Source: Chloroflexota bacterium
GTDB lineage: Bacteria; Chloroflexota; Anaerolineae; Anaerolineales; Villigracilaceae
NCBI GenBank assembly: GCA_021787595.1
Contig: JAJYLQ010000021.1
Span: 1-62,322, forward strand
Direction of reading: 5' to 3'
Length of the DNA: 62,322 bases
The notes under the pieces were generated by a model. That model did no database searches. It had not been told where the DNA came from and saw nothing but the letters and a program-made list of their open reading frames with translations. Positions 13,681-53,225 of the stretch are shown piece after piece; within the stretch, counting starts at the first letter, position 1, and every line of letters starts with the position of its first letter. Made by a program: the position numbers and the translations under genes.

Positions 13681-14910
<1,230 letters not shown>

Positions 14911-15830: not shown

Positions 15831-16517
15831 TTAGAACTCGATGCTTTCTCCCGGCTTCAAAACCTTGACCCTGGTCTTGGTCTCCGCTTCGACGCGTTTC
15901 GCCCAGGCCGCCGCGTCCTGCTTGATCAGATCGAATGTGTTGTAATGGATTGGGACGACCACCTTCGGCTGGATCAACTTGACGGCGCGCAGCGCGTCAT
16001 CCGGCCCCATGGTGAAGTTATCGCCGATGGGCAACACTGCCAGGTCAATGCCCTCCTCGCCGATCAGCTTCATATCGCCGAACAGGCCGGTATCCTGGGC
16101 CATGTAGATTTTCTTGCCATCGTTGGTGGTCAACAGGAACCCGGCAGGATTCCCGCCGTTGTGCCCGTCGGGAAGCTCGGAGCCGTGCAGCGCCAGCGTC
16201 AGTTTGAGATAACCGAATGGATGTTTGTAACCGCCGCCGAGGTGCTGCCCGTGTGTTTTCTTCACGCCTTTCGTCCCGGCCCAGGCCGCGATCTCGAAGT
16301 TGCTGATGATCGGCGCGCCGGTTCGCTGGGCAATCTCCACCGCGTCGCCGACGTGATCTCCGTGGCCGTGACTGATGAGGATGAAATCCGCCGCCACGCG
16401 GTCCGGCTTGACCGAAGCCGCGGGGTTGCCCTCCAGAAACGGGTCAACCAGAATATGATAGCCGCCGGTTTCCAATCCAAGTGCGGCATGACCATACCAC
16501 GTAAATTTGTTTGTCAT
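15831..16517 (-). CDS. UPF0173-type metal-dependent hydrolase (MBL fold)
   Basis: A 228-residue metallo-β-lactamase-fold hydrolase. It opens with TWYGHAALGLE and carries the metal motif SHGHGDHVGD (about 50-59), then MAQDTGLFGDM (Asp ligand) and a late VPIHYNTF (His ligand). This arrangement is typical of UPF0173, which is similar to L-ascorbate-6-phosphate lactonase; the true substrate is unknown. The start at 16517 follows GGAGG and lies inside a well-formed transcript from a TTGACC/TATACT promoter. Divergent from the channel cassette. Confidence 0.88.
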   Translation of the reverse strand: MTNKFTWYGHAALGLETGGYHILVDPFLEGNPAASVKPDRVAADFILISHGHGDHVGDAVEIAQRTGAPIISNFEIAAWAGTKGVKKTHGQHLGGGYKHPFGYLKLTLALHGSELPDGHNGGNPAGFLLTTNDGKKIYMAQDTGLFGDMKLIGEEGIDLAVLPIGDNFTMGPDDALRAVKLIQPKVVVPIHYNTFDLIKQDAAAWAKRVEAETKTRVKVLKPGESIEF

Positions 16518-16570: not shown

Positions 16571-16592
16571 TCATTTCCTGCTGCTTTTCCAT

Positions 16593-16620
16593 TGGCGTTT
16601 TGCAGAAATCAAACTATAAT
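16593..16620 (+). promoter_or_regulatory. promoter of the channel cassette
   Basis: -35 TTGGCG (16593-16598), 16-base spacer, -10 TATAAT (16615-16620). Predicted start near 16627, leaving a short leader with GCGGAGG before the ATG at 16649. Confidence 0.65.
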
Positions 16621-16648
16621 GTTCCAACTTGTACAAAGCGGAGGTTAT

Positions 16649-18550
16649 ATGCCCTCGTCCCAGCCTAACTGGCGCCAACGACTAAGTTATTATTTTGATA
16701 AAACGCTTGCTCGTGGCCCTAGCGCCTTAATAGGTTGGCTAGCATTGGCGACGGCCCTGTTGATCGCGTTGGCCACAACAGTGGATTTGCTTGCCCATGG
16801 CGTCCCAGATCAATCAAGCCCGCTTGGCGTCTTGTGGAATATATTATCGCAGGCCTTAACGCCTAATCCTGTTGATTCAAATAACCCATGGCAATATTTG
16901 CTCGTAATGCTGGCAGTTACGCTTGGAAGCTTGTTTATTGTCAGTATTCTTATCGGCATTTTGAGCAATGAAATTCAAGCACGTGTTGATTTATTGCGCC
17001 GTGGCCGTTCTAAAGTCTTAGAAAGCGACCATACAGTAATTCTGGGATGGTCACATCAGGTTTTTACGATTATTTCAGAGTTAATTATTGCGAATGAGAA
17101 CCGTACGGAAGGGGCTGTCGTAGTTATCCTTGCCGACAAAGATAAAGTTGAGATGGAAGATGAGATTCGCGCTCATATCCACCACATCGAAAACACGAGA
17201 GTTATCTGCCGAAGTGGCGATCCGATAGAATTGGCTGATATCGAGATTGTCAGCCCTCATACTGCTCGTTCCATTATTGTTCTGCCACCGGACGAAGACG
17301 ATCCTGATATCTTTGTCATTAAGACGATCCTTGCTATAACTAACAACCCGAAGCGCCGGAATAGCAAATATCATATCGTCACACAACTGCGCGACGAAAA
17401 ACACTTGGATGTGGTGCAGATGATAGGTCAAAGAGATGATGTGCAAGCCGTGATGGTTGAGGACTTGATTGCTCGTGTTATAGCACAAACCTCTCGCCAA
17501 TCAGGACTCTCGATGGTTTATACTGAATTGCTGAATTTTGAGGGCGACGAAATCTACTTTCAGGAAGAGCCAACACTCATGGGCAAGACATTTGGTGAAG
17601 CCTTACTGGCTTATGAAACATCCTCTGTCATGGGCTTACGCCAGATGGATGGAACAATCCTGCTTAATCCATCCATGGATACTCTGATTAAAGCAGGAGA
17701 CGAGGTTTTTGCTATTTCTGAAGATGATGATACGGTGAAAGTTTCAGGATTGCCTAGCATCCCTGTAGATATCGGTAGCATTAAAAAGAACGAGAGTTCT
17801 CGAAAGACGGTTCCCGAAGAAGGTCTCATTTTGGGATGGAACCGCTATGGTTTGGTTGTTGTTCGCGAATTGGATGCTTATGTTGCTCCAGGATCACATT
17901 TAACCATTGTGGCCAATACTAATGCTATACCAGAGATCAAGGAAAGCAGTGCTCATTTGATTCAGCAGGAGACGACAATTCTCAGCGGCGACACGACAGA
18001 TCGGCGTTTGCTTGACAGCTTGAATTTAGCAAACTTCGACTACGTTATTGTATTGGCCGATTCTAATATGGAAGTACAGGAATCCGATGCGCGTACGTTG
18101 GTTACATTGTTGCATCTGCGCGATATTCTTGAAAAGTATAAGGAGGCGCATTTCATTGTGGTCAGTGAGATGCTGGATTTACGTAACCGCCAATTAGCCG
18201 ATGTAGCCCATGTGGATGACTTTGTTGTCAGCGAGCATCTGCCAAGCTTAATGATGTCTCAGCTTTCGGAAAATAGTGAGTTGCAAATCGTTTTTGCAGA
18301 CCTATTTAGCCATGAAGGTTCAGAAATCTACCTAAAACCAATTGGTAATTATATTGAGACTGGTAAGCCGATCAATTTCTATACAGTTGTCGAGTCCGCT
18401 CGCCGCCGTGGTGAGATAGCGATCGGTTATCGTATAATGACAGAGATAAACAACGCCAACAAATCCTACGGTGTCCACACCAATCCAAAGAAGTCGGAGA
18501 TGGTGAGATTTACTCCAGAAGATAAAATTATTGTTGTGGCTGAAAAATGA
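16649..18550 (+). CDS. CASTOR/POLLUX-like RCK-domain ion channel
   Basis: A 633-residue protein with two TM helices (about 25-50 and 84-108) separated by a loop that could hold the pore. Two cytoplasmic RCK-like regions follow. The first begins VILGWSHQVFTII; the second begins LILGWNRYGLVVV around residue 375, each followed by a TrkA-C-like stretch. The ILGWS signature and two-fold RCK layout match the CASTOR/POLLUX (DMI1) group. The protein ends RFTPEDKIIVVAEK. Start at 16649 with GCGGAGG upstream. Codon use is A+T-rich compared with the genes on both sides. First gene of a five-gene membrane cassette. Ion selectivity cannot be read from the sequence. Confidence 0.85.
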   Translation: MPSSQPNWRQRLSYYFDKTLARGPSALIGWLALATALLIALATTVDLLAHGVPDQSSPLGVLWNILSQALTPNPVDSNNPWQYLLVMLAVTLGSLFIVSILIGILSNEIQARVDLLRRGRSKVLESDHTVILGWSHQVFTIISELIIANENRTEGAVVVILADKDKVEMEDEIRAHIHHIENTRVICRSGDPIELADIEIVSPHTARSIIVLPPDEDDPDIFVIKTILAITNNPKRRNSKYHIVTQLRDEKHLDVVQMIGQRDDVQAVMVEDLIARVIAQTSRQSGLSMVYTELLNFEGDEIYFQEEPTLMGKTFGEALLAYETSSVMGLRQMDGTILLNPSMDTLIKAGDEVFAISEDDDTVKVSGLPSIPVDIGSIKKNESSRKTVPEEGLILGWNRYGLVVVRELDAYVAPGSHLTIVANTNAIPEIKESSAHLIQQETTILSGDTTDRRLLDSLNLANFDYVIVLADSNMEVQESDARTLVTLLHLRDILEKYKEAHFIVVSEMLDLRNRQLADVAHVDDFVVSEHLPSLMMSQLSENSELQIVFADLFSHEGSEIYLKPIGNYIETGKPINFYTVVESARRRGEIAIGYRIMTEINNANKSYGVHTNPKKSEMVRFTPEDKIIVVAEK

Positions 18551-18767
18551 ATCTTTGGATTGACGATACGAATTTAAATCCTTTTCAGAATCATGCTCAA
18601 CTCAACCAAAGTATTCAACGTCAAGCACTGAACTTATCTTTTTAAAAAATTGTCGTAAAGCATGGCTTATGTTGCGTAGATTTTATGAATACATGATGGC
18701 ATGAATTACCGCTAAATTGACTTTCAGAATAAATACATGACATTGTCCAATTCATTCGGAGTGCAAA

Positions 18768-20612
18768 ATGATAAATTTGTTTGGCTATAACACACCTCTT
18801 CCGGCAGGATGGGAATGGCTCAGCAATCCTTACATAGCCTTTGTAGTTAATCTCTTACTCGCCTCTCTCTTGGCAATAGTTCTGCAGACAGTCGTTTTTA
18901 GAATTATTAAGATATGGACCAGAGGGACAGAAACAGAGCTCGATGACGTGATCTTGGGTGTTCTTCGGTACCCGCTGATTGTCCTTATTGTTTTGTTGGG
19001 GATAAGATCAGCCTTAGATGCTCTGGGCATTGAGTTTCTAACTCAAAATACGGACAAGGTATTTTGGGCGATCGGGGTGCTTCTCTTAACTTATGTGATA
19101 TGGCGGATAAGTAGGGATGTTTTGTTACATTATTGGAAAGAACGTGCGGAGGAGAGTGAAACAGGCGTTGACGACATTCTATCGCCACTCGTAAATATTA
19201 TTGCGCCCATAATAATCTTTGTTATAGGTGGATTGATATCTTTGCAGGTGCTCGGATTTAATATTTTGGGTTTGACAGTAATAATCAGCGCCGGTTCTTT
19301 CATATTGGCACTTGCTTTACAAGCCCCTCTGACCAACATTTTTAGCGGAATTAGTTTAATTATGGATACGCCATTTGCGTTGGGCGATATTATCATTTTG
19401 TCAGATAATAGCATTTGTCAAGTCGTGCGGATCGGTTTGAGAGTCACAGAGCTATACAATATGGTCAATCATTCCAACATTTTTGTGCCGAATAGTAAAA
19501 TGGCAGGAGAGACGCTGGTGAACATCAGCAGCCCCACACCTGACCTAAAGGCATGGATTATTATTGGAATTGAACAGGCACCTGAAGCATTGAAGCGCGC
19601 ACCAGATTTATTGCTGGAAATCGCTCGCGCGAATCCATATATCCTAGGTGATGGGAAAAGCAACCTCGAGGCTATGGAGCATAGAAAAGAATATATTGAG
19701 AAGAGAATAGACTCCAGAGCAGATACTAACGAGTACCATGCTCGCGAATTGAAAGAAATTATTTGGGGAATGGAAATGATTAAGGTCCAGAATGAACTTT
19801 ATGAGGAAATAGAAAATTTGCGCCATGGTCTGAAAGGCCTTTCATGGCTTATTTATAAAGCAAAAGTAAGTGATTTGGGCGAGGAAGAACTTTCCTTGGA
19901 ACAACTTTATGAGGAAGCAGACCAACAGGAAAAACTCAACCAGAAAGAAGAAACCTCTAAGAAAAAACAAGCAGGAGGCCCGCAAGATGGACGAGGGTTA
20001 AGTGTCAAGGAAAAACAACAAATTGTAAAAAAATTTATATTGATAAGAAACTATTTTGAAGATATGTTATCAGGCAAGTATAAATTGTGGGTTGATGTAC
20101 GTAGTAAAGATCCAAATCTACGCAAAGTGGACAAAACCGGTGAGGGAGGAATTTCAGTGGTCGGTTCATATGTTCAAAAAGAAAAGCAGGAAGGTAAAAT
20201 TCACGCCGATGCTAATCGTCGTAGGAAGAAACTTATAAAGAGATTGGAGAAACTTGAGAAACAGATAACCAATCCAAATGAAGTGGACGAATTGCGGTTG
20301 AATGTAATGGTTAATGAATTTGATAAATGGATTGCAGAGAAATTCTTGGATAGCTTCAATGATTGGCAGCGCCCAATCGTTTCATTTGATAGCTTCGGCG
20401 ACTATACATTTAACCTAAAGTTAACATTCTTCATAGACGACATTTATCTTGAAAAATTCGCGCGTATAAACCGGGTTCCATCTGATCTTCGACGGCGCAT
20501 CACTGAGCGACTCACTGAGGAGGGCATCAAAGTCAACCCGAATCCGACCCAGATTATTGACTTGCAAGATGGGCTTGAAAAATTCCAATCGGAAAATAAG
20601 AATGTAAGCTGA
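18768..20612 (+). CDS. MscS-family channel with large cytoplasmic insertion
   Basis: A 614-residue mechanosensitive-type channel. Four to five TM helices occupy residues 20-200. The pore helix/β-domain block (ALALQAPLTNIFSGISLIMDTPFALGDIII, 178-207 overall) is followed by VGL-like strand motifs and VPNSKMAGE. In ordinary MscS the αβ domain follows at once. Here about 240 residues of charged, helical, coiled-coil-like sequence (about 280-520) intervene before a final αβ-like segment (FNLKLTFFIDD...). The last part resembles the usual MscS C-terminal domain. Preceded by 217 bases of A+T-rich spacer with GGAG before the ATG. Confidence 0.8.
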   Translation: MINLFGYNTPLPAGWEWLSNPYIAFVVNLLLASLLAIVLQTVVFRIIKIWTRGTETELDDVILGVLRYPLIVLIVLLGIRSALDALGIEFLTQNTDKVFWAIGVLLLTYVIWRISRDVLLHYWKERAEESETGVDDILSPLVNIIAPIIIFVIGGLISLQVLGFNILGLTVIISAGSFILALALQAPLTNIFSGISLIMDTPFALGDIIILSDNSICQVVRIGLRVTELYNMVNHSNIFVPNSKMAGETLVNISSPTPDLKAWIIIGIEQAPEALKRAPDLLLEIARANPYILGDGKSNLEAMEHRKEYIEKRIDSRADTNEYHARELKEIIWGMEMIKVQNELYEEIENLRHGLKGLSWLIYKAKVSDLGEEELSLEQLYEEADQQEKLNQKEETSKKKQAGGPQDGRGLSVKEKQQIVKKFILIRNYFEDMLSGKYKLWVDVRSKDPNLRKVDKTGEGGISVVGSYVQKEKQEGKIHADANRRRKKLIKRLEKLEKQITNPNEVDELRLNVMVNEFDKWIAEKFLDSFNDWQRPIVSFDSFGDYTFNLKLTFFIDDIYLEKFARINRVPSDLRRRITERLTEEGIKVNPNPTQIIDLQDGLEKFQSENKNVS

Positions 20613-20660
20613 ACAGTTGCACCAAACTTAATTCAAGCAAGTTATGCTTTGGAGAGTGAT

Positions 20661-23522
20661 ATGGGAAATTGGCAAAGACGACATATTTGGGTTGCAGTTG
20701 CATTGGGCGTCTGCATGATTGCAGTTTGGTTGTCGCTTACTACAACTGTAAACAACGCACAGGATTATTCTCTTCAATGTATTGATTCAGGTCGGGGAAA
20801 TGATCTACTGAATGTTAAGGCCATTTTGCAGAAATCTGAATCCGACCTTCGCAACGGGCAAGATGTCGGTATAGCCGAAGCAGATCGCGGTGTTATCGAA
20901 ACGGCCGTTTCGGTATTTTCTGTTCCTCTCGGGATTTCAACACCTTCAACCACTTCTGTTCCAAAATGCCCACATCCAACCGCACTTTCTATCGAACAAA
21001 CACCCGGCTTCCAATCTTCACTTGCACCTTCTGTATCTACGCCTACACCTACAGCCACTCCTTCTGCCTCCGCAACACCAATTCTTGCTTTTAATGACCT
21101 GCCTTTAAAAGACCAAATTAGCACGGTGGAACCGTTTGTTAACAGCGTTGATAATGATATCCAAACCCTTCATAATACTGCTTGGCCTTTCGTCTTACTT
21201 ATCCTTTTTGGCGTTCTTCTTGCGCTTTTATCCTCATATTTTGCAACGTCTTTAATTAACCGTCTATTGACCCGAAATTGGTATAAGAAATTGAACGCCA
21301 ATGAACAAGAACTAATTGACCAGTTTAAGGGAATATTACAAAAACTATCTTTCGATTCAATATACGCCATTTTGAATCGTAATATTCTTGGGGAAGATCT
21401 CAAGCAGGATGTCGCTTCTTTGGAAAAGCATTACAGAACCCATCACCAAGAGGAAGAGATGGACTGGTATATGGCTTCCCGCATATTATACAAGGTCGGT
21501 TATGTATGTCGGGCCGAAAGTGCAAAAATGTCTGAGAGGGAAGTGTATGATGCCTATCAAATCGTTCAAAAGATTATTTCTCTCGGCTTAAGAAAACAGT
21601 TGGTCAGACTAGCCGATACGTTGACATTCTTTCTAGCCTTATGGCTTATTCTTAACTCAGGAATCCCGCTGACCCTATCTGCTGTATCTAAATCGTCAGC
21701 CCTATTAGGTGGGTTCATGGAGCCTTGGCTCCACTTTGTAGAACTTCTTGGAGGTGGCATACTGCTTATTGTTATTAGTATGCCCATTTTAGAATATGGA
21801 ATCCGCTGGTTTACCGAAAAGACCTGGTCAGACTTTGATGATCTGCTGGTAGGCGTTATTGGGGGGCCACTCATTGTGGTTGTCATTGCCGTAATTATAT
21901 CTTTATCGATAAGTCAGGTCCCCGATTATTTTATTTATTATGTTCGCATTGGTTGGAATATTGCTAACCAAACTAAATGGAGCCAATCCCTTGTAACTCT
22001 CTTGATAGGTTGGTTGGCAATTTTCTTACTAAATAAAGTAATTGTTTATGCCCTCTTGCGGTGGAGCGAGCGTACAGAACAAAAATATGACGATATGTTT
22101 GTGCGTATTATACAGGTGTTTGGGACGTTTATTCTGATCGCAATTGATTTAGGGGTCTTGCTAACTAATTTTCAGGAGGATATTACAAAATTAACGGGCG
22201 TTGATAATATCCTGCTTCCCTATTCGATCATCGTCAGTGTTTTTAGCGCAGTATTAGGTTACGCCAGCAGAGACGCGATAGAAAATTTCTTTGGGGGTAT
22301 TATGCTACAGGTCGACGCGCCTTTTCGGGTTGGAGAAAGACTCGATTTGGGTGAGGGTCAAATTTGTGATGTTCGCGAACTTGGTATGCGCAGTACGACC
22401 TTATATAACATCTCAGAAAATAATGAAATATCTGTTCCTAACAGCGAAATGGCGAAAAAGACGATCAAGAATCTATCGCGACCGGACCGTTCATTTCGCT
22501 CTATCTCAAAAGCGATAGTTCCTTATAATCCTACGGATATTCAAAAATTGGAATCGACATTGATGGATATTGCCTATTTGGAGGGCGAGGTTGATGAAAT
22601 GCGCGTGGCGGAAGAGGAAATCGGTACACATCAGCACGCTTTAGGAAGGAGATCCGTTATAGAGGAACTTAAAAGCCTTGAAAGATCGCATCCTCAAATA
22701 TTGGGGGCGGTCACTTCGCAAATTGAAGGGGGAGGAAAATTTAGCGAACGACTTATATTCCCTGAGCTATATGAGCGATTGGAACGAGTCTTTAGGTTGC
22801 GAAAAGAATATGAGCAAGTATATTCTGAAGCACAAAATGAATTAAAGAATATTATCGCCACTGTTTCTCAATATTCAGATAAACATTACCTTGAGCAATT
22901 TACTGACTTGGTACGCGAAGTGGATTTGAGGATATATCTTTTGTACTTAAATGGTAAAGAAAAAGAAAAAATTGATCCTTTTTCAGAAGAAGATGAGAAA
23001 AAAATAGAAAATCTTATTGTAGATTTTGGATTTAGAAACAAGGATGTGAATATCATTAAGGGCAAATTATTAGAACTGGGCAACCAAAATGTTAAATATA
23101 TTGATGAGGAATTGAAGAAACGTGCTGAAAAGAGTTATGGAGATAAGATAGGTTACATGGGAATAAAAGCCAGGACAGAACGTTGGGAGAAAGAAAGACT
23201 GCGAAAAGTCTCCCAAATTGCAGCGGAGACGAGCATTATCGGAGAATTGACTCTTGCCATCGCAACAAGCTTGCCAGCAATTCGTCCCGATATGGATCGT
23301 CTTTTTACTGAGTTAAATAAAGAGCCTGTAGTAATCTCCACTTCTTTGGCACTTCAAGAACAACACTTTAAAGAGATTCAGCTTGGTTATTATGCAATGC
23401 ACACAGAGCGCAAAGATATTGTCTCCCACAAGGTAAATAAGGCCATTCGTCGTCGCATGTTTCGTGCTGGGGTAGTTCCTGTAAGCCAAGAGGAACTTGT
23501 TGATTGGCAAGAAAGAGCCTGA
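20661..23522 (+). CDS. large MscS-family channel with periplasmic domain and coiled-coil tail
   Basis: A 953-residue protein. TM1 (about 8-27) is followed by an extracytoplasmic segment of about 140 residues with a Thr/Pro/Ser linker, then TM2 (about 175-200), a helical cytoplasmic stretch, and six or so further TM helices (about 315-540). The MscS pore/β-domain core follows (GYASRDAIENFFGGIMLQV, VDAPFRVGERLD, VPNSEMAKKTI; about 530-615). The last 340 residues are charged and helical, with no clear MscS αβ domain. The ATG at 20661 with GGAGAG upstream is preferred over TTG at 20649. Downstream gene starts one base after its stop. Confidence 0.8.
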   Translation: MGNWQRRHIWVAVALGVCMIAVWLSLTTTVNNAQDYSLQCIDSGRGNDLLNVKAILQKSESDLRNGQDVGIAEADRGVIETAVSVFSVPLGISTPSTTSVPKCPHPTALSIEQTPGFQSSLAPSVSTPTPTATPSASATPILAFNDLPLKDQISTVEPFVNSVDNDIQTLHNTAWPFVLLILFGVLLALLSSYFATSLINRLLTRNWYKKLNANEQELIDQFKGILQKLSFDSIYAILNRNILGEDLKQDVASLEKHYRTHHQEEEMDWYMASRILYKVGYVCRAESAKMSEREVYDAYQIVQKIISLGLRKQLVRLADTLTFFLALWLILNSGIPLTLSAVSKSSALLGGFMEPWLHFVELLGGGILLIVISMPILEYGIRWFTEKTWSDFDDLLVGVIGGPLIVVVIAVIISLSISQVPDYFIYYVRIGWNIANQTKWSQSLVTLLIGWLAIFLLNKVIVYALLRWSERTEQKYDDMFVRIIQVFGTFILIAIDLGVLLTNFQEDITKLTGVDNILLPYSIIVSVFSAVLGYASRDAIENFFGGIMLQVDAPFRVGERLDLGEGQICDVRELGMRSTTLYNISENNEISVPNSEMAKKTIKNLSRPDRSFRSISKAIVPYNPTDIQKLESTLMDIAYLEGEVDEMRVAEEEIGTHQHALGRRSVIEELKSLERSHPQILGAVTSQIEGGGKFSERLIFPELYERLERVFRLRKEYEQVYSEAQNELKNIIATVSQYSDKHYLEQFTDLVREVDLRIYLLYLNGKEKEKIDPFSEEDEKKIENLIVDFGFRNKDVNIIKGKLLELGNQNVKYIDEELKKRAEKSYGDKIGYMGIKARTERWEKERLRKVSQIAAETSIIGELTLAIATSLPAIRPDMDRLFTELNKEPVVISTSLALQEQHFKEIQLGYYAMHTERKDIVSHKVNKAIRRRMFRAGVVPVSQEELVDWQERA

Positions 23523-23523
23523 G

Positions 23524-24366
23524 ATGGAAAAAAATAATTTGAGTAAATACTTAAAATGGAGTATTGCTTTTCTCTTTGGTCTTACCATTCTATACCTTCT
23601 TATTTGGTCAGAGAGTTTGGCAACATTGTTAAGCAAGGGCGCGCCTACACCTTCACCATGGCTGTTTCGACTGGAAATAATGGTTGTCATTCTTGCCATC
23701 GTGAGTAGATGGGAGCGAATACAGGAAGTTATTCACATTTGGAATACATGGCGTGAAGGGATCAGTATTTTGAGGTATTCTCTTGAAAGTGTTGGAATTG
23801 CTTTCTTAATTATGTTGATCTTATCTTCAAATGTTCTGATAAACTTTTCATCTTCAGTGCTGATGAACAACTTCTTATTGGTGTCATTTTTTGCCTTTGT
23901 AACAGTTGGCTTGACTTTGTGGATTCTTGTTGCTTTGTCGGGAACTCTAGACGGGCCGAAACTGGTTCGTGAACCTTATCTTTTTGGCGACAATACTGTT
24001 ATTGAGGAGTTAAAGAAACTTGGTTTGAATATCTTGCGCGAAGAAAATGCTAAGCTTGATCTCCTTTCTTTGAGTAAAAAACCGGAGAGTGAGTTCGTAG
24101 AAGTGTTGTTGGGAAAGGAGAAAAAGCTATTAACAGTAGAAGAGAAAAAACGATTGGCTAATGAGGAAATAAAGCTATTAGAAGATATGGGGGCATTGGT
24201 AGATGAAGAGAAAAAACGATTAATCAATGAAAAGATAAAACAATTAACTGAAGAAGAGAAAAAGAAGTCAAAATGGGAAATTGTTTTACGGCTTGAACTT
24301 GATCTTGCGGGAAATATAAATAACATTGTTCGTTACGACAATGTTGAAGATTATCGAAAATTATGA
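23524..24366 (+). CDS. unknown membrane protein with repeated coiled-coil tail
   Basis: A 280-residue protein with no family I recognise. Hydrophobic helices lie at about 10-33, 40-60, 85-110 and 115-145. The cytoplasmic tail from about 150 is strongly charged. It contains an internal repeat, EEKKRLANEEIKLL followed 20 residues later by DEEKKRLINEKIKQL, and then more KK/EE-rich helix, giving a likely coiled coil. It starts one base after the stop of the large MscS gene, so it is probably co-translated and a partner of that channel. Low G+C like its neighbours. Confidence 0.65.
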   Translation: MEKNNLSKYLKWSIAFLFGLTILYLLIWSESLATLLSKGAPTPSPWLFRLEIMVVILAIVSRWERIQEVIHIWNTWREGISILRYSLESVGIAFLIMLILSSNVLINFSSSVLMNNFLLVSFFAFVTVGLTLWILVALSGTLDGPKLVREPYLFGDNTVIEELKKLGLNILREENAKLDLLSLSKKPESEFVEVLLGKEKKLLTVEEKKRLANEEIKLLEDMGALVDEEKKRLINEKIKQLTEEEKKKSKWEIVLRLELDLAGNINNIVRYDNVEDYRKL

Positions 24367-24381
24367 TTTTTCAATGAGCGG

Positions 24382-26136
24382 ATGACTATGGAAGAATCTC
24401 CATGGCTTCAAGTAATTGGCGATGCCTATGTCGTTCTAGCGCTGGATTTGGCAACCTTCGTTACTGATGACTCACTTAATGACCTAGAACAAATCAGAGG
24501 GCAAAAATTCTTCGATAACTATTTAGAGAATTTGCCGCACATCGTAGAGCAGGGACCGTTTGAATTATCGAGAGAATACAAAAAACGCGAACAAAGTGGA
24601 TATGGCTTTGGCATTTTTAACCGCGTGCTAGCTGAAGACAACTTTGCCCCAACCTATTCGGTCGACAAGGACAAGATCGAATTCCCATCCCATTTGATCA
24701 ACAATGTACAATTCAAGGATCGTTTTCTGCCCGTATGGAAGCGCTGGGAGTTCTACCTTCGCGTTTCAAGCAATGGCATCATTACAATGATCCTGCACCT
24801 AAGGATCCCAAAATATAGGGAAATTGAGCTGGTCGCTCAAGATGTGATGGGCCTGCACTACTATTTCGATATGGCAAATGCCATGGAGAAACGGAGAGAA
24901 CTGCAAGTTGGCTTGACAGCAGAAAATTTGTCACAATTACAGAAAGAAAACACCCAGAAAAAAAGCGATTCAATCGAACAACTGATTGCATGGGTCCAGG
25001 AACGATCCATGAATCAACTGGAAGATGAAAAATCCCCAGTTGTGTGGCAAATGGCTGTTGAAGTGATGAGAAGATGGATACAAACTATAGATGGGAAAAT
25101 TTCTATATTAGATGACAACAGCAAAACATGGAACATAAATCTCAGCCTAAAACCACGTTCGGGGACTCTCAGGGAGATTTTCACTACTTACATTTTAACT
25201 TCTATACGAGATCGTAAAAAACAGCCCTCACTTTCTACTGGGCTATCACCGCAAGAAATCCTCTCATCAGCTACATATCAACAGGTCGTCGCGGCGATAA
25301 CTGAAGGGGTTTTGCTTCATGGACGAAAGGATTATACGCTTCCTGCTCACAATCTGCAAAGAGCATCCAATTTGATGGAGACAAACTTGGCAACTTGGGA
25401 TAAAGAGCTTTGTATTATCACAGACGGGAGTGCATTTATATACTACCGTCCATTTGAAAAGCAGCAAGTGGCATTCTCCAGCCGAGAAGTCAGTTATGAG
25501 GATTACTGGCTCACGATTTTCCGCCTAATGGAATTCGGTTTAGAAGTAAAGATGTTAGCACTTTTGCTTGAAAAGCAAAGCTCTAATGCCTTGGCATTAC
25601 GTTTATCGCAAAAATGGGAAACAGGAAAAGAGGGCCGAACTCAATCCACAAATGACGTTTCAATGTTTTTATTAAACACAAGCCGACTACTTGCTCATAC
25701 GCGCAGCTTGAGTACTGCTCCAATTGTTGGGCAAGCCAGTTATTCCATCCACAAGTATGAATTCCTTTTAGGGTGTTTCGGTGTGCCCGTAATCCTTGCA
25801 CATGCAGAGACCAACCTTGAAAACATGTCGCAACTACTTGAACGAAACATTGATCTAGAGCTACAACTTGAAGGTCAGACTGTGAACGAAAACGCACTTG
25901 CGTTTTCGTTGGTATTTGCAAGTGTTTCTCTCGCAATGGGCTTTTTAGCCTTCCCGTCTTTCTTGGCAGATTGGCAAACTCAAGATCCTTTTCCAAAAAC
26001 CCTCTGGCTATATCCATATTTTGGCTGGATTGGTGTTGGTTTAATGGGTTTTCTCTCGATTATCAGTATCGGCGCTTTCTTCTTTGCAGTCAGAATGTTT
26101 TTTAGGCTCAGAAGAAAGCGTAAGACGCTGTTGTAA
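24382..26136 (+). CDS. unknown protein, large soluble domain plus C-terminal TM hairpin
   Basis: A 584-residue protein of unknown family. About 500 residues appear soluble (mixed helix and strand, Glu/Lys/Gln-rich helices near 185-215 and 415-445). They end in a long helix (about 480-505) leading straight into two TM helices (about 510-535 and 550-575) and a basic RLRRKRK tail. A long helix feeding a terminal TM pair recalls CorA-type transporters, but the GMN loop motif is absent and I see no sequence similarity. Last gene of the A+T-rich cassette; its stop is immediately followed by the remnant of another channel gene. Confidence 0.6.
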   Translation: MTMEESPWLQVIGDAYVVLALDLATFVTDDSLNDLEQIRGQKFFDNYLENLPHIVEQGPFELSREYKKREQSGYGFGIFNRVLAEDNFAPTYSVDKDKIEFPSHLINNVQFKDRFLPVWKRWEFYLRVSSNGIITMILHLRIPKYREIELVAQDVMGLHYYFDMANAMEKRRELQVGLTAENLSQLQKENTQKKSDSIEQLIAWVQERSMNQLEDEKSPVVWQMAVEVMRRWIQTIDGKISILDDNSKTWNINLSLKPRSGTLREIFTTYILTSIRDRKKQPSLSTGLSPQEILSSATYQQVVAAITEGVLLHGRKDYTLPAHNLQRASNLMETNLATWDKELCIITDGSAFIYYRPFEKQQVAFSSREVSYEDYWLTIFRLMEFGLEVKMLALLLEKQSSNALALRLSQKWETGKEGRTQSTNDVSMFLLNTSRLLAHTRSLSTAPIVGQASYSIHKYEFLLGCFGVPVILAHAETNLENMSQLLERNIDLELQLEGQTVNENALAFSLVFASVSLAMGFLAFPSFLADWQTQDPFPKTLWLYPYFGWIGVGLMGFLSIISIGAFFFAVRMFFRLRRKRKTLL

Positions 26137-26205
26137 AGCTCGGATGTGAAAAATCTCATCGTGTTTGCGCCGGAAGATAAAGTCATCGTACTCGCTGAAA
26201 GTTAA
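26137..26205 (+). pseudogene. 3' remnant of a second CASTOR-like channel gene
   Basis: Beginning at the codon right after the previous stop, 22 codons read SSDVKNLIVFAPEDKVIVLAES without its initial bases being a start, then TAA. The C-terminus of the channel at 16649-18550 ends RFTPEDKIIVVAEK, so FxPEDKxIVxAE is shared. There is no start codon or ribosome site and the rest of the gene is missing. The remnant is the 3' end of an ancestral channel gene that the cassette apparently replaced or displaced. Confidence 0.8.
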
Positions 26206-26249
26206 TCTGAAAGCGATGAATTGCGCGGCAGGTTTCAGCCTGCCGCGTC

Positions 26250-26990
26250 TTATAACGCGCCGGCTTCGATTCCTTCCTTCCCCAGCGCCTCCCGCACCCG
26301 CTTTGCATTTTCCGCGGCGCGGACGTTATCGCCGTGCAAACACAACGTATCCACTTTGACTCGTTTGCCAGAAAAACCGATTCCATTTTCGACAAGAGTC
26401 ACAGCATGAGCCGCGACCTCTTCCGGTGACTCGATGATGGCATTCGGTTGTCCGCGCGGGACCAAGGTTCCATCGGGATTGTAATTACGGTCTGGGAATG
26501 CCTCGTTCGCGACGCGCAAACCCAACTCCGCCCCCGCTTCAGCCAGGCTTGAACCGGCCAGCCCGACCAGAATCAGATCCACGCTGAAGGCTTTCACCGC
26601 GCGTGCGATGGCATTCGCGAGGGCGCGATCCTTCGCGGCCTGATTGTAAAGCGCGCCGTGCGGCTTGACGTGACGCAGTTCAATCCCCTCTGATTTTGCA
26701 AATGCCGCCAGCGCGCCGATTTGATACAGGACAAACGCTTCAGTCTCTTCGACAGACAGATCCATCCTGCGCCGGCCGAAGCCCTGCAAATCAGGCCAGC
26801 CTGGATGTGCGCCAATCGCCACATTATATTTTTTCGCAAGCCGAATCGTTTTCCGCATGACCAGCGGATCGCCCGCGTGAAGTCCGCAGGCGAGGTTGGC
26901 GGACGTGATGAAAGGCATGACGGCTTCATCACTGCCGAGGTTGTATTGTCCAAAACTTTCACCCATGTCACAGTTGAGATCGATTCTCAT
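26250..26990 (-). CDS. pxpA: 5-oxoprolinase subunit A (LamB/YcsF family)
   Basis: A 246-residue protein starting MRIDLNCDMGESFG, the hallmark of the PxpA/YcsF family, with SANLACGLHAGDP (about 32-44), GAHPGWPDLQGFGRR and HVKPHGALYN metal/active-site segments. With PxpB and PxpC it forms the prokaryotic ATP-dependent 5-oxoprolinase that recycles pyroglutamate to glutamate. Start at 26990 with GGAGG upstream. Order here is pxpB-pxpC-(repeat)-pxpA on the minus strand, all three present. Confidence 0.95.
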   Translation of the reverse strand: MRIDLNCDMGESFGQYNLGSDEAVMPFITSANLACGLHAGDPLVMRKTIRLAKKYNVAIGAHPGWPDLQGFGRRRMDLSVEETEAFVLYQIGALAAFAKSEGIELRHVKPHGALYNQAAKDRALANAIARAVKAFSVDLILVGLAGSSLAEAGAELGLRVANEAFPDRNYNPDGTLVPRGQPNAIIESPEEVAAHAVTLVENGIGFSGKRVKVDTLCLHGDNVRAAENAKRVREALGKEGIEAGAL

Positions 26991-27000
26991 ATTGCCTCCA

Positions 27001-27164
27001 TGTCGTTGCGAGCGATGGTCGAGTAGGCGGTGGTTTTCCGCCTTATCGAGACCGAGCGCGGCAATCTCGTGTAACATTTATGTATTTGATGGATAAGATT
27101 GCCACACTGAGAGAACGCAGTGCTTCGTCGTGGCGCCAAGGCGCCACTCCTCGCAATGACATTA
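27001..27164. repeat. GTCATTGCGAGG repeat, composite copy
   Basis: Begins ATGTCGTTGCGAGCGATGG and ends CCACTCCTCGCAATGACAT. A hairpin GGCGGTGGTTTTCCGCC and a GTGGCGCCAAGGCGCCAC core are inside. It fills the gap between pxpC and pxpA and reaches the pxpC stop codon. Confidence 0.75.
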
Positions 27165-51953: not shown

Positions 51954-53225
51954 ATGAAATCCCTAACCTTCATTTGCGTTTTGTTTGCTCTGCTCTTATC
52001 AGCATGTGGCAGTATTCAGCCCGCGCCAACGATGAGTGCAACTGCGACCTCTTTGCCGACTAATACACACATTCCTACTGCCACCGCAACCCCAATACCA
52101 ATGATTGACGTTAATGGAATACAAGTTCCCGATCCCAAAGTTACAAATCCAGATTTATTTGATTTGAAGAACTCTGAATCACCGATTGTCCAATTTGCAA
52201 ATGCTTTCGGAATCAAGCCTGAAGAAGTTGGCAACTTAACACCTAAACTGTTAACCAGTGTTGATAGAAAACAATTTGTTGTTTTAATAAGCTCTAGTGG
52301 ATATCCTTTATTAATAACAGACAAGGAATCCCATTGGAAAAGCGCGCTAAAAGACTTCACGCATACAGTTAATATTATTGTTGGTGTTTATTTAGAACCG
52401 GGTAAAGATGATTATTTGACAGATCAAGTTGCAAAAAATAATTTTGATGACATTGTTTTACCTATATTTTGGCATAATATATTTGCGAATGAAAACTACG
52501 CCAATTGGAGTTTGCCAGATAGTAGAGTAAGTTTAGCAGAATCTGAGATGGGTCAATTTGGCGGAACTCTAATATGGCAGAACACAGATTTTCTTCCTGA
52601 ATGGTTTAAAAATAGTAAAGTTACAGAGGAGCAGGTAAGATCGATGATTAAATCAATCATACAAAAGTATCCTGATGTTAAGGTTTGGTTACCAGTCAAC
52701 GAACCTTATCCGACAGATTTTTTTGCTAGCAGACTAGGTTATCCTAACTATGTTATTATGGCTTTTGATGAAGCAAGAAAAGATACTAACGCTCCTTTAG
52801 TACTTAATGACTTTGATATAGAAAAAACTGGAACGCAAAAATACAATCAAACGAAGACCCTTGTAGAAACTCTTAAATCCCAGAATTTGATAGATGGTAT
52901 TGGAATACAAATGCATATCGATCCCAATAATCCTCCATCAAAAGAAGCACTGGTTGAAAACTTTAAGAGTTGGGGGATTGACGTTTACTTAACAGAGCTA
53001 GATGTCCCAACCGATAATGGACAACTAAAGGCTAAAATATTTAGTGATGTATTTTCAGCAGCTATGGAGGCAGGCGTAGTAAAACAGATTAATATTTGGG
53101 GAGTAGGTAATGCCGCGTGGAAACAAAATGGGAATCTATTTAATGCAAGCGCACAACCAACAATTGCCTTATTCGAGGTTGAAAAAGCTGTAGTCGATTA
53201 TCTATCTGCTTTATCTCCCCAATAA
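51954..53225 (+). CDS. GH10 glycoside hydrolase-like lipoprotein
   Basis: A 423-residue lipoprotein: lipobox LLSACG (Cys about 18), a Thr/Pro linker (to about 50) and a TIM-barrel of the GH10 xylanase family. The acid/base Glu is in VWLPVNEPYP (about residue 247) and the nucleophile Glu in VYLTELDVP (about 345). Family hallmark HNIFANENY replaces the usual HTLVWH region, so the glycan target may differ from xylan. Distinctly A+T-rich compared with neighbours; likely acquired. AAAGGA lies upstream of the ATG. Confidence 0.82.
   Translation: MKSLTFICVLFALLLSACGSIQPAPTMSATATSLPTNTHIPTATATPIPMIDVNGIQVPDPKVTNPDLFDLKNSESPIVQFANAFGIKPEEVGNLTPKLLTSVDRKQFVVLISSSGYPLLITDKESHWKSALKDFTHTVNIIVGVYLEPGKDDYLTDQVAKNNFDDIVLPIFWHNIFANENYANWSLPDSRVSLAESEMGQFGGTLIWQNTDFLPEWFKNSKVTEEQVRSMIKSIIQKYPDVKVWLPVNEPYPTDFFASRLGYPNYVIMAFDEARKDTNAPLVLNDFDIEKTGTQKYNQTKTLVETLKSQNLIDGIGIQMHIDPNNPPSKEALVENFKSWGIDVYLTELDVPTDNGQLKAKIFSDVFSAAMEAGVVKQINIWGVGNAAWKQNGNLFNASAQPTIALFEVEKAVVDYLSALSPQ

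Follow-up and report, generated by a model that had tools for sequence, protein, structure and literature searches.

A CASTOR-like channel gene and two large MscS genes as a candidate laterally acquired module at the castor locus of a Chloroflexota bacterium

Introduction

The plant channels CASTOR, POLLUX, and DMI1, the mechanosensitive channel MscS, the CorA/ZntB/CmaX (2-TM-GxN) family of transmembrane (TM) proteins, and genomic islands at gene 3′ ends are the closest described counterparts of the locus examined here. This locus lies in a 62,322-nucleotide stretch, hereafter the window (contig JAJYLQ010000021.1, assembly GCA_021787595.1), from the 99.6% complete genome of a Chloroflexota bacterium of the family Villigracilaceae, and comprises five A+T-rich genes, g1 to g5, the first of which encodes a relative of CASTOR (a castor gene). 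In the plant channel, the CASTOR filter aspartate D265 (motif ADSGNHA) is required for current, and D442 and E493 are required for function (PMC6697748).

The product of g1 shares with the plant channels PF06241, RCK gating-ring type domains, and equivalents of D442 and E493, but it is bacterial, has two hydrophobic segments, and carries TPNP in place of the filter aspartate. The products of g2 and g3 (MscS-A and MscS-B) exceed the curated cut-off for the MscS beta-domain, from which gating by membrane tension is predicted; unlike MscS, both carry ~230 or more extra residues, with g3 reaching 953 residues, and both are located at a castor locus. The modeled g5 protein seems to share with CorA, ZntB, and CmaX an alpha/beta domain, a long helix leading into TM1, and a C-terminal TM2, but it lacks the GxN motif, any Foldseek hit below E 0.001, and any above-cut-off Pfam match. 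Finally, as in islands at gene 3′ ends, the block has an intact castor gene at one end and a displaced castor 3′ stub at the other, but no recognized integrase, and g1 is A+T-rich along most of the gene, beyond its 3′ end. We give about even odds (roughly 0.5) to the view that the castor and MscS pair was acquired laterally at a recombination hot spot and likely constitutes a module for ionic/osmotic stress whose cargo varies.

Results

An initial annotation, made from the sequence alone, had described g1 to g5 as an A+T-rich ion-channel cassette. Five open reading frames (ORFs) indeed run head to tail on the + strand at 16649-26136 (Table 1), and the guanine-plus-cytosine (GC) content of positions 16649-26158 is 0.413, compared to 0.535 in the remainder of the window. 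The lowest-GC 9.5-kb stretch of the window begins at 16681 (GC, 0.412), and GC at third codon positions (GC3) ranges between 0.35 and 0.45 in g1 to g5, compared to 0.55 to 0.77 in eight flanking genes. The G+C counts that the annotation had quoted for two 60-base lines, 22 at 23101 and 37 at 14161, are both exact. Its short gaps are found after g2, g3, and g4 (48, 1, and 15 nt) but not after g1, where 217 nt leave room for a second promoter. The divergent promoter that it had placed ahead of g1 corresponds to two overlapping promoter-like sites, although the excess of such sites across the region is mild (28 versus 21.5 in shuffled sequences; standard deviation, 4.5). A TTG...TATAAT site with 16- to 18-nt spacing precedes castor in 10 of the 17 loci scanned, including the window and congeners G002, G003, and G004.

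Castor matches occur in 39 of 61 near relatives and in 116 of 152 genomes of the family, with mostly similar neighbors in the loci read: DnaJ, a trypsin-like protease, a molybdopterin-type gene, sometimes MBL, and then pxp genes and/or rumA, names that we presume except where they derive from Pfam-type domain matches. By flank identity, the closest genome is G004 (DnaJ, 92%; trypsin-like, 90%; molybdopterin-type, 96%; MBL, 96%; rumA, 76% identity), yet its castor is only 64% identical to g1. The reverse ranking holds for G003, whose castor is 70% identical to g1 and whose flanks are 67 to 90% identical. The initial annotation had extended the block to 26205; positions 26137-26205 in fact lie outside g5 and hold the 3′ stub of a castor gene. 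This stub begins 22 nt past the g5 stop codon, encodes 14 residues with 86% identity to the castor of G004 (E 1.9e-4 in a search of the 62-kb window), and ranked second within the window with each of the six castor C termini tested. At the DNA level, the stub and its downstream hairpin, taken as the terminator of the castor gene (26163-26247), match G004 at 75.6% over 86 columns (E 1.9e-10). The block is therefore bounded by a surviving castor promoter on the left and by a castor 3′ end on the right, which suggests that A+T-rich DNA was inserted at, or replaced, a resident castor. No second castor 3′ end was detected at 65 other castor loci from 54 genomes, mostly within 1.5 kb of flanking sequence. 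Second hits in G036 and G015 fell inside castor itself and were dropped, and a second castor piece in G527 runs into a contig end and was not counted.

When g2 was searched against 400 genomes of the phylum, the best foreign match (E 1.7e-60) lay directly behind castor in G373, which belongs to a different genus of the same family. Contig C64 of G373 carries a molybdopterin-type gene, castor, MscS-A (564 residues, 33% identical to g2), and, running off the contig, the first part of another membrane protein. Contig C41 carries 782 residues of MscS-B (31 to 32% identical to g3), an AAA ATPase of 512 residues, a castor stub, and rumA. All G373 MscS matches of the g2 search fall within these two MscS genes. 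The G373 stub comprises 51 codons that align with castor residues 578 to 632 with a small deletion (E 1.7e-14). Matching flanks indicate that C64 and C41 presumably abut. A search for the same gene order elsewhere, as the annotation had recommended, thus recovered g1 to g3 between the same neighbors but neither g4 nor g5; the condition under which the annotation would have abandoned the unit, genes that never adjoin in other genomes, does not apply to the first three genes but does apply to g4 and g5. The castors of G373 and G528, which belong to one genus, share 81% identity; the castor of each carrier is therefore of the type found in its own lineage.

Both MscS assignments of the annotation hold. 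MS_channel_2nd scores 40.9 bits in g2 and 43.9 bits in the 953-residue g3 (cut-off, 20.2), and a periplasmic stretch is predicted in g3. The insertion in g2, put at ~240 residues, amounts to ~230 residues between MS_channel_2nd and MS_channel_3rd; such an addition of ~230 or more residues between the beta domain and the C terminus is also seen in the aligned relatives. The g2 and g3 proteins are 27% identical to each other. The AlphaFold model of g2 had a predicted local distance difference test (pLDDT) score of 43.7 and was not used. The MscS domain PF00924 is present in 38 of 61 relatives. Its two copies in the window genome are both inside the block (g2 and g3), and none was detected in five congeners, two of which are merely 77 to 78% complete. 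MscL, on the other hand, occurs in 33 of 37 genomes, including all six members of the genus. A g3-type profile, built from g3 and the G373 MscS-B and thus from its own two top scorers, gave 1,868 bits for the window genome, 1,403 bits for G373, and at most 54.5 bits elsewhere among the 152 family genomes, and these two genomes are the only ones in the family set in which g3-type MscS was found.

The region behind castor also differs among relatives. Nine other loci hold castor and the next conserved gene on one contig. The gap between the two is below 400 bp in five of them (G003, G004, G010, G012, and G540), and the other four (G527, G018, G002, and G487) hold 1.2 to 6.1 kb of extra, mutually different DNA, which supports repeated insertion behind castor. 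Directly behind the G527 castor lies an A+T-rich gene found in two versions on two contigs (L146:5822-6934 and L145:2601-3716), which we take to be acyltransferase-like and which represents another insertion at the same spot.

The CASTOR-like RCK identity that had been assigned to g1 is borne out by PF06241 (Castor_Poll_mid; E 1.3e-32, 112 bits versus a cut-off of 26.7), by Slo-like_RCK and TrkA_N domains above the Pfam cut-offs, and by a match along the length of the CASTOR soluble domain (E 1.7e-76). Among 54 aligned bacterial castors, 47 carry a D-x-G type filter, mostly LDxGTMGGD, where g1 lacks the aspartate and reads QALTPNPVD. The seven TPNP castors (LTPNPxD), namely, g1 and those of G003, G004, G496, G495, G490, and G487, group together on one side of a tree branch with full support (100/100). 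None of g2 to g5 is present in the readable flanks of the TPNP castors of G003, G004, G496, G490, and G487, and the G495 contig is too short. By its motif rather than by alignment with the plant pore, we read the bacterial filter aspartate as the probable equivalent of D265. Residues aligned with D442 and E493, gating-ring Ca2+ residues of CASTOR, are retained in g1; the CASTOR numbering relies on an inferred offset of 309, which also places H463.

The last two genes are nonconserved parts of the block. The repeated tail that the annotation had noted in g4 is real, with a 24-nt spacing, but its idea that coiled-coil partners tie the channels together found no footing: no convincing relative of g4 was found, and castor or MscS never stands beside g5 relatives in the loci read. 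A candidate g4 relative in G386 (E 3e-5 over 68 residues) was dropped, being absent from a tblastn search of the G386 locus at E 0.01. The terminal TM pair proposed for g5 is present as a C-terminal hydrophobic pair, and a known domain was sought in g5 without any Pfam match above the cut-off. A g5 match was found for 6 of the 61 relatives and for 4 of the 400 genomes of the phylum (the window genome is counted in both), and the family counts 14 loci in genome_contigs; no matches to g1 to g4 were seen near g5 relatives in the loci read, several of which are contigs of merely 3 to 5 kb. In the g5 model (pLDDT, 79.5), an alpha/beta domain is predicted ahead of a long helix into TM1 and a C-terminal TM2. 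CorA or CmaX chains make up 41 of the best 50 Foldseek rows, the best with E 0.02 and none below 0.001. VIA Z scores of 7 to 9 against CorA-family rows are in a range reachable by chance for helical models, and the top VIA row is an unrelated helical chain (Z 10.2). The GxN motif is absent from all 14 testable rows of the g5 family, L098 being truncated before the loop, and the sole GxN found in the family (L102) sits behind TM2. Naming g5 CorA is not justified, and it is possible that it acts like a CorA-type pentameric channel.

Some g5 relatives have distinctive neighbors. Two of them (L097 and L100) adjoin radical-SAM and AAA/NACHT-TPR ATPase genes, as tested with Pfam, and L084 lies near similar-looking genes; the radical SAM gene near all three has a DCDCAC-like N terminus. 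A membrane protein of ~234 residues with a IHIGTGPIFVLCW motif lies shortly 3′ of the g5 relative in L083, L092, and L074, and the L092 copy has no Pfam match.

Table 1. Coordinates of the block, its promoter-like sites, and adjacent genes in the window
Feature	Position	Strand	Description	Basis
Promoter-like site	16592..16620	+	TTGGCG-17-TATAAT, 5′ of castor g1	Site scan; aligned with relatives
Opposing promoter-like site	16570-16542	-	TTGACC-17-TATACT; overlapping divergent pair	Site scan
g1	16649..18550	+	CASTOR-like RCK channel, 633 aa from ATG behind GGAGG; filter QALTPNPVD	ORF, Pfam, alignment
g2	18768..20612	+	MscS-A, 614 aa, beta and C-terminal domains separated by ~230 additional residues	ORF, Pfam
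g3	20661..23522	+	MscS-B, 953 aa, membrane segment at the N terminus, periplasmic stretch predicted	ORF, Pfam
g4	23524..24366	+	Orphan protein, 280 aa, hydrophobic N-terminal half, heptad-like repeated charged tail	
g5	24382..26136	+	Unnamed family, 584 aa; CorA-like layout in model, without GxN motif	
Castor 3′ stub	26158..26205	+	Ends FAPEDKVIVLAES-stop; hairpin shortly downstream	
Left-flank gene	15831..16517	-	Presumably metal-dependent hydrolase-like; 96.5% identical to G004	
Right-flank gene	26250..27077	-	Presumably ycsF/pxpA-like	

Other origins, among them a prophage or a plasmid, were considered for the block and rejected. An Rfam search for RNA elements gave no match in it, and the only signs of a transposon with flanking repeats were short repeats that are probably due to chance. 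Neither g3 nor g5 matched phages, and viral_contigs held no relative. As for plasmids, g5 had no match, and the plasmid matches of g3 covered the MscS part only, at most 24% of the query among the matches listed. No integrase match above the cut-off was found in g1 to g5, the Resolvase match of g4 (E 0.1) being below it. Elsewhere in the window, a second A+T-rich stretch (51954-53225) contains one lipoprotein-like ORF of 423 residues, which we take to resemble family 10 glycosyl hydrolases.

Discussion

From the observed gene content, composition, and stub, the reappearance of core and stub in another genus, and the lack of detectable MscS in congeners, we infer both the lateral transfer and the function of the block. 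In this scenario, A+T-rich DNA would have entered this locus behind the castor promoter, with the final codons of a castor gene remaining at its far end. The conserved core would consist of the CASTOR-like RCK channel, MscS-A, and MscS-B, the genes that follow being carrier-specific cargo, and would most likely function as a module in ionic/osmotic stress. Cations would pass through the RCK channel, which a cytoplasmic ligand, possibly Ca2+, would control, while the MscS pair, with its enlarged cytoplasmic domains, would let solutes out as membrane tension rises; g5 may contribute a CorA-like cation path. The recurrence of the first three genes in a second genus suggests a transferable channel module and not a chance cluster. 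The unit is thus probably three genes plus cargo rather than the five first proposed: the castor and MscS core recurs, but castor is resident in many relatives without the rest. Overall, the interpretation in the initial annotation is partly supported, and its remark that no described system has this membership agrees with the literature searched on bacterial castor-like channels, MscS clusters, and degenerate CorA, in which the gene set is undescribed, most subscription journals lying outside the search.

Several points weigh against this proposal. There are only two carriers, and in G373 the MscS-B gene is split over C64 and C41, whose ends have no shared sequence, the ORF at the C64 end matching the g3 N terminus with E 0.07 only. 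No donor was found, a genome_contigs scan with g3 giving no close relative, and neither an integrase nor a relaxase was recognized in the block. Castor stubs lying farther downstream than the 1.5 kb mostly searched would have escaped detection. In addition, CASTOR D444, H463, and the filter aspartate are not retained in g1, and Ca2+ selectivity is therefore not to be assumed.

Alternatively, a recombination hot spot behind castor might simply gather unrelated genes, in which case the membrane genes would have no joint function. We consider this possible, if somewhat unlikely: the differing extra DNA at four of nine other castor loci is its main support, neither g4 nor g5 is conserved in G373, and g2-type MscS and g5 relatives are found alone elsewhere, but two genera have the castor/MscS-A/MscS-B order in common at ~32% MscS identity, and the window and G373 loci both terminate in a castor stub. 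In a more far-reaching reading, castor, MscS-A, and MscS-B would form one functional complex or circuit for Ca2+-responsive osmotic release, spreading between genera via recombination in castor while g4 and g5, or the AAA ATPase, are swapped at the tail; we hold this to be doubtful.

A defense island, with the channels as membrane-permeabilizing effectors and the variable tail (the G373 ATPase or g5) as sensors or regulators, appears quite unlikely. The G373 ATPase (L144:2504-4042) does match the PADLOC phage-defense candidate PDC-M28C (E 1.1e-5), and g5 relatives keep the radical-SAM and AAA/NACHT-TPR neighbors described above. However, g1 to g5 have no notable PADLOC match (the best, g4 to Cas12f at E 0.034, falls in a coiled region), the G373 MscS-A and MscS-B have none, and no recognizable sensor or nuclease was found in the window block. 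It is highly improbable that no transfer took place, with g1 to g5 being old in this lineage and lost by relatives and the stub deriving from a former tandem castor copy. Since g1 belongs to one filter clade with the G003 and G004 castors, castor itself is not exotic, but GC and GC3 shift sharply at the block edges, no MscS was found in any of the five congeners, and g1 is far less like its G004 counterpart than the flanks are.

If the block was indeed acquired as a laterally transferred channel module, a genus without detectable MscS gaining two such channels in one event would cleanly exemplify how a stress response can be gained laterally. The natural filter types LDxGTM and LTPNPV within one bacterial family would also provide direct constructs for studying the determinants of selectivity. 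To our knowledge, no role has been assigned to bacterial CASTOR relatives, and should the castor-MscS link recur, it would give them a testable context in osmotic or ionic stress.

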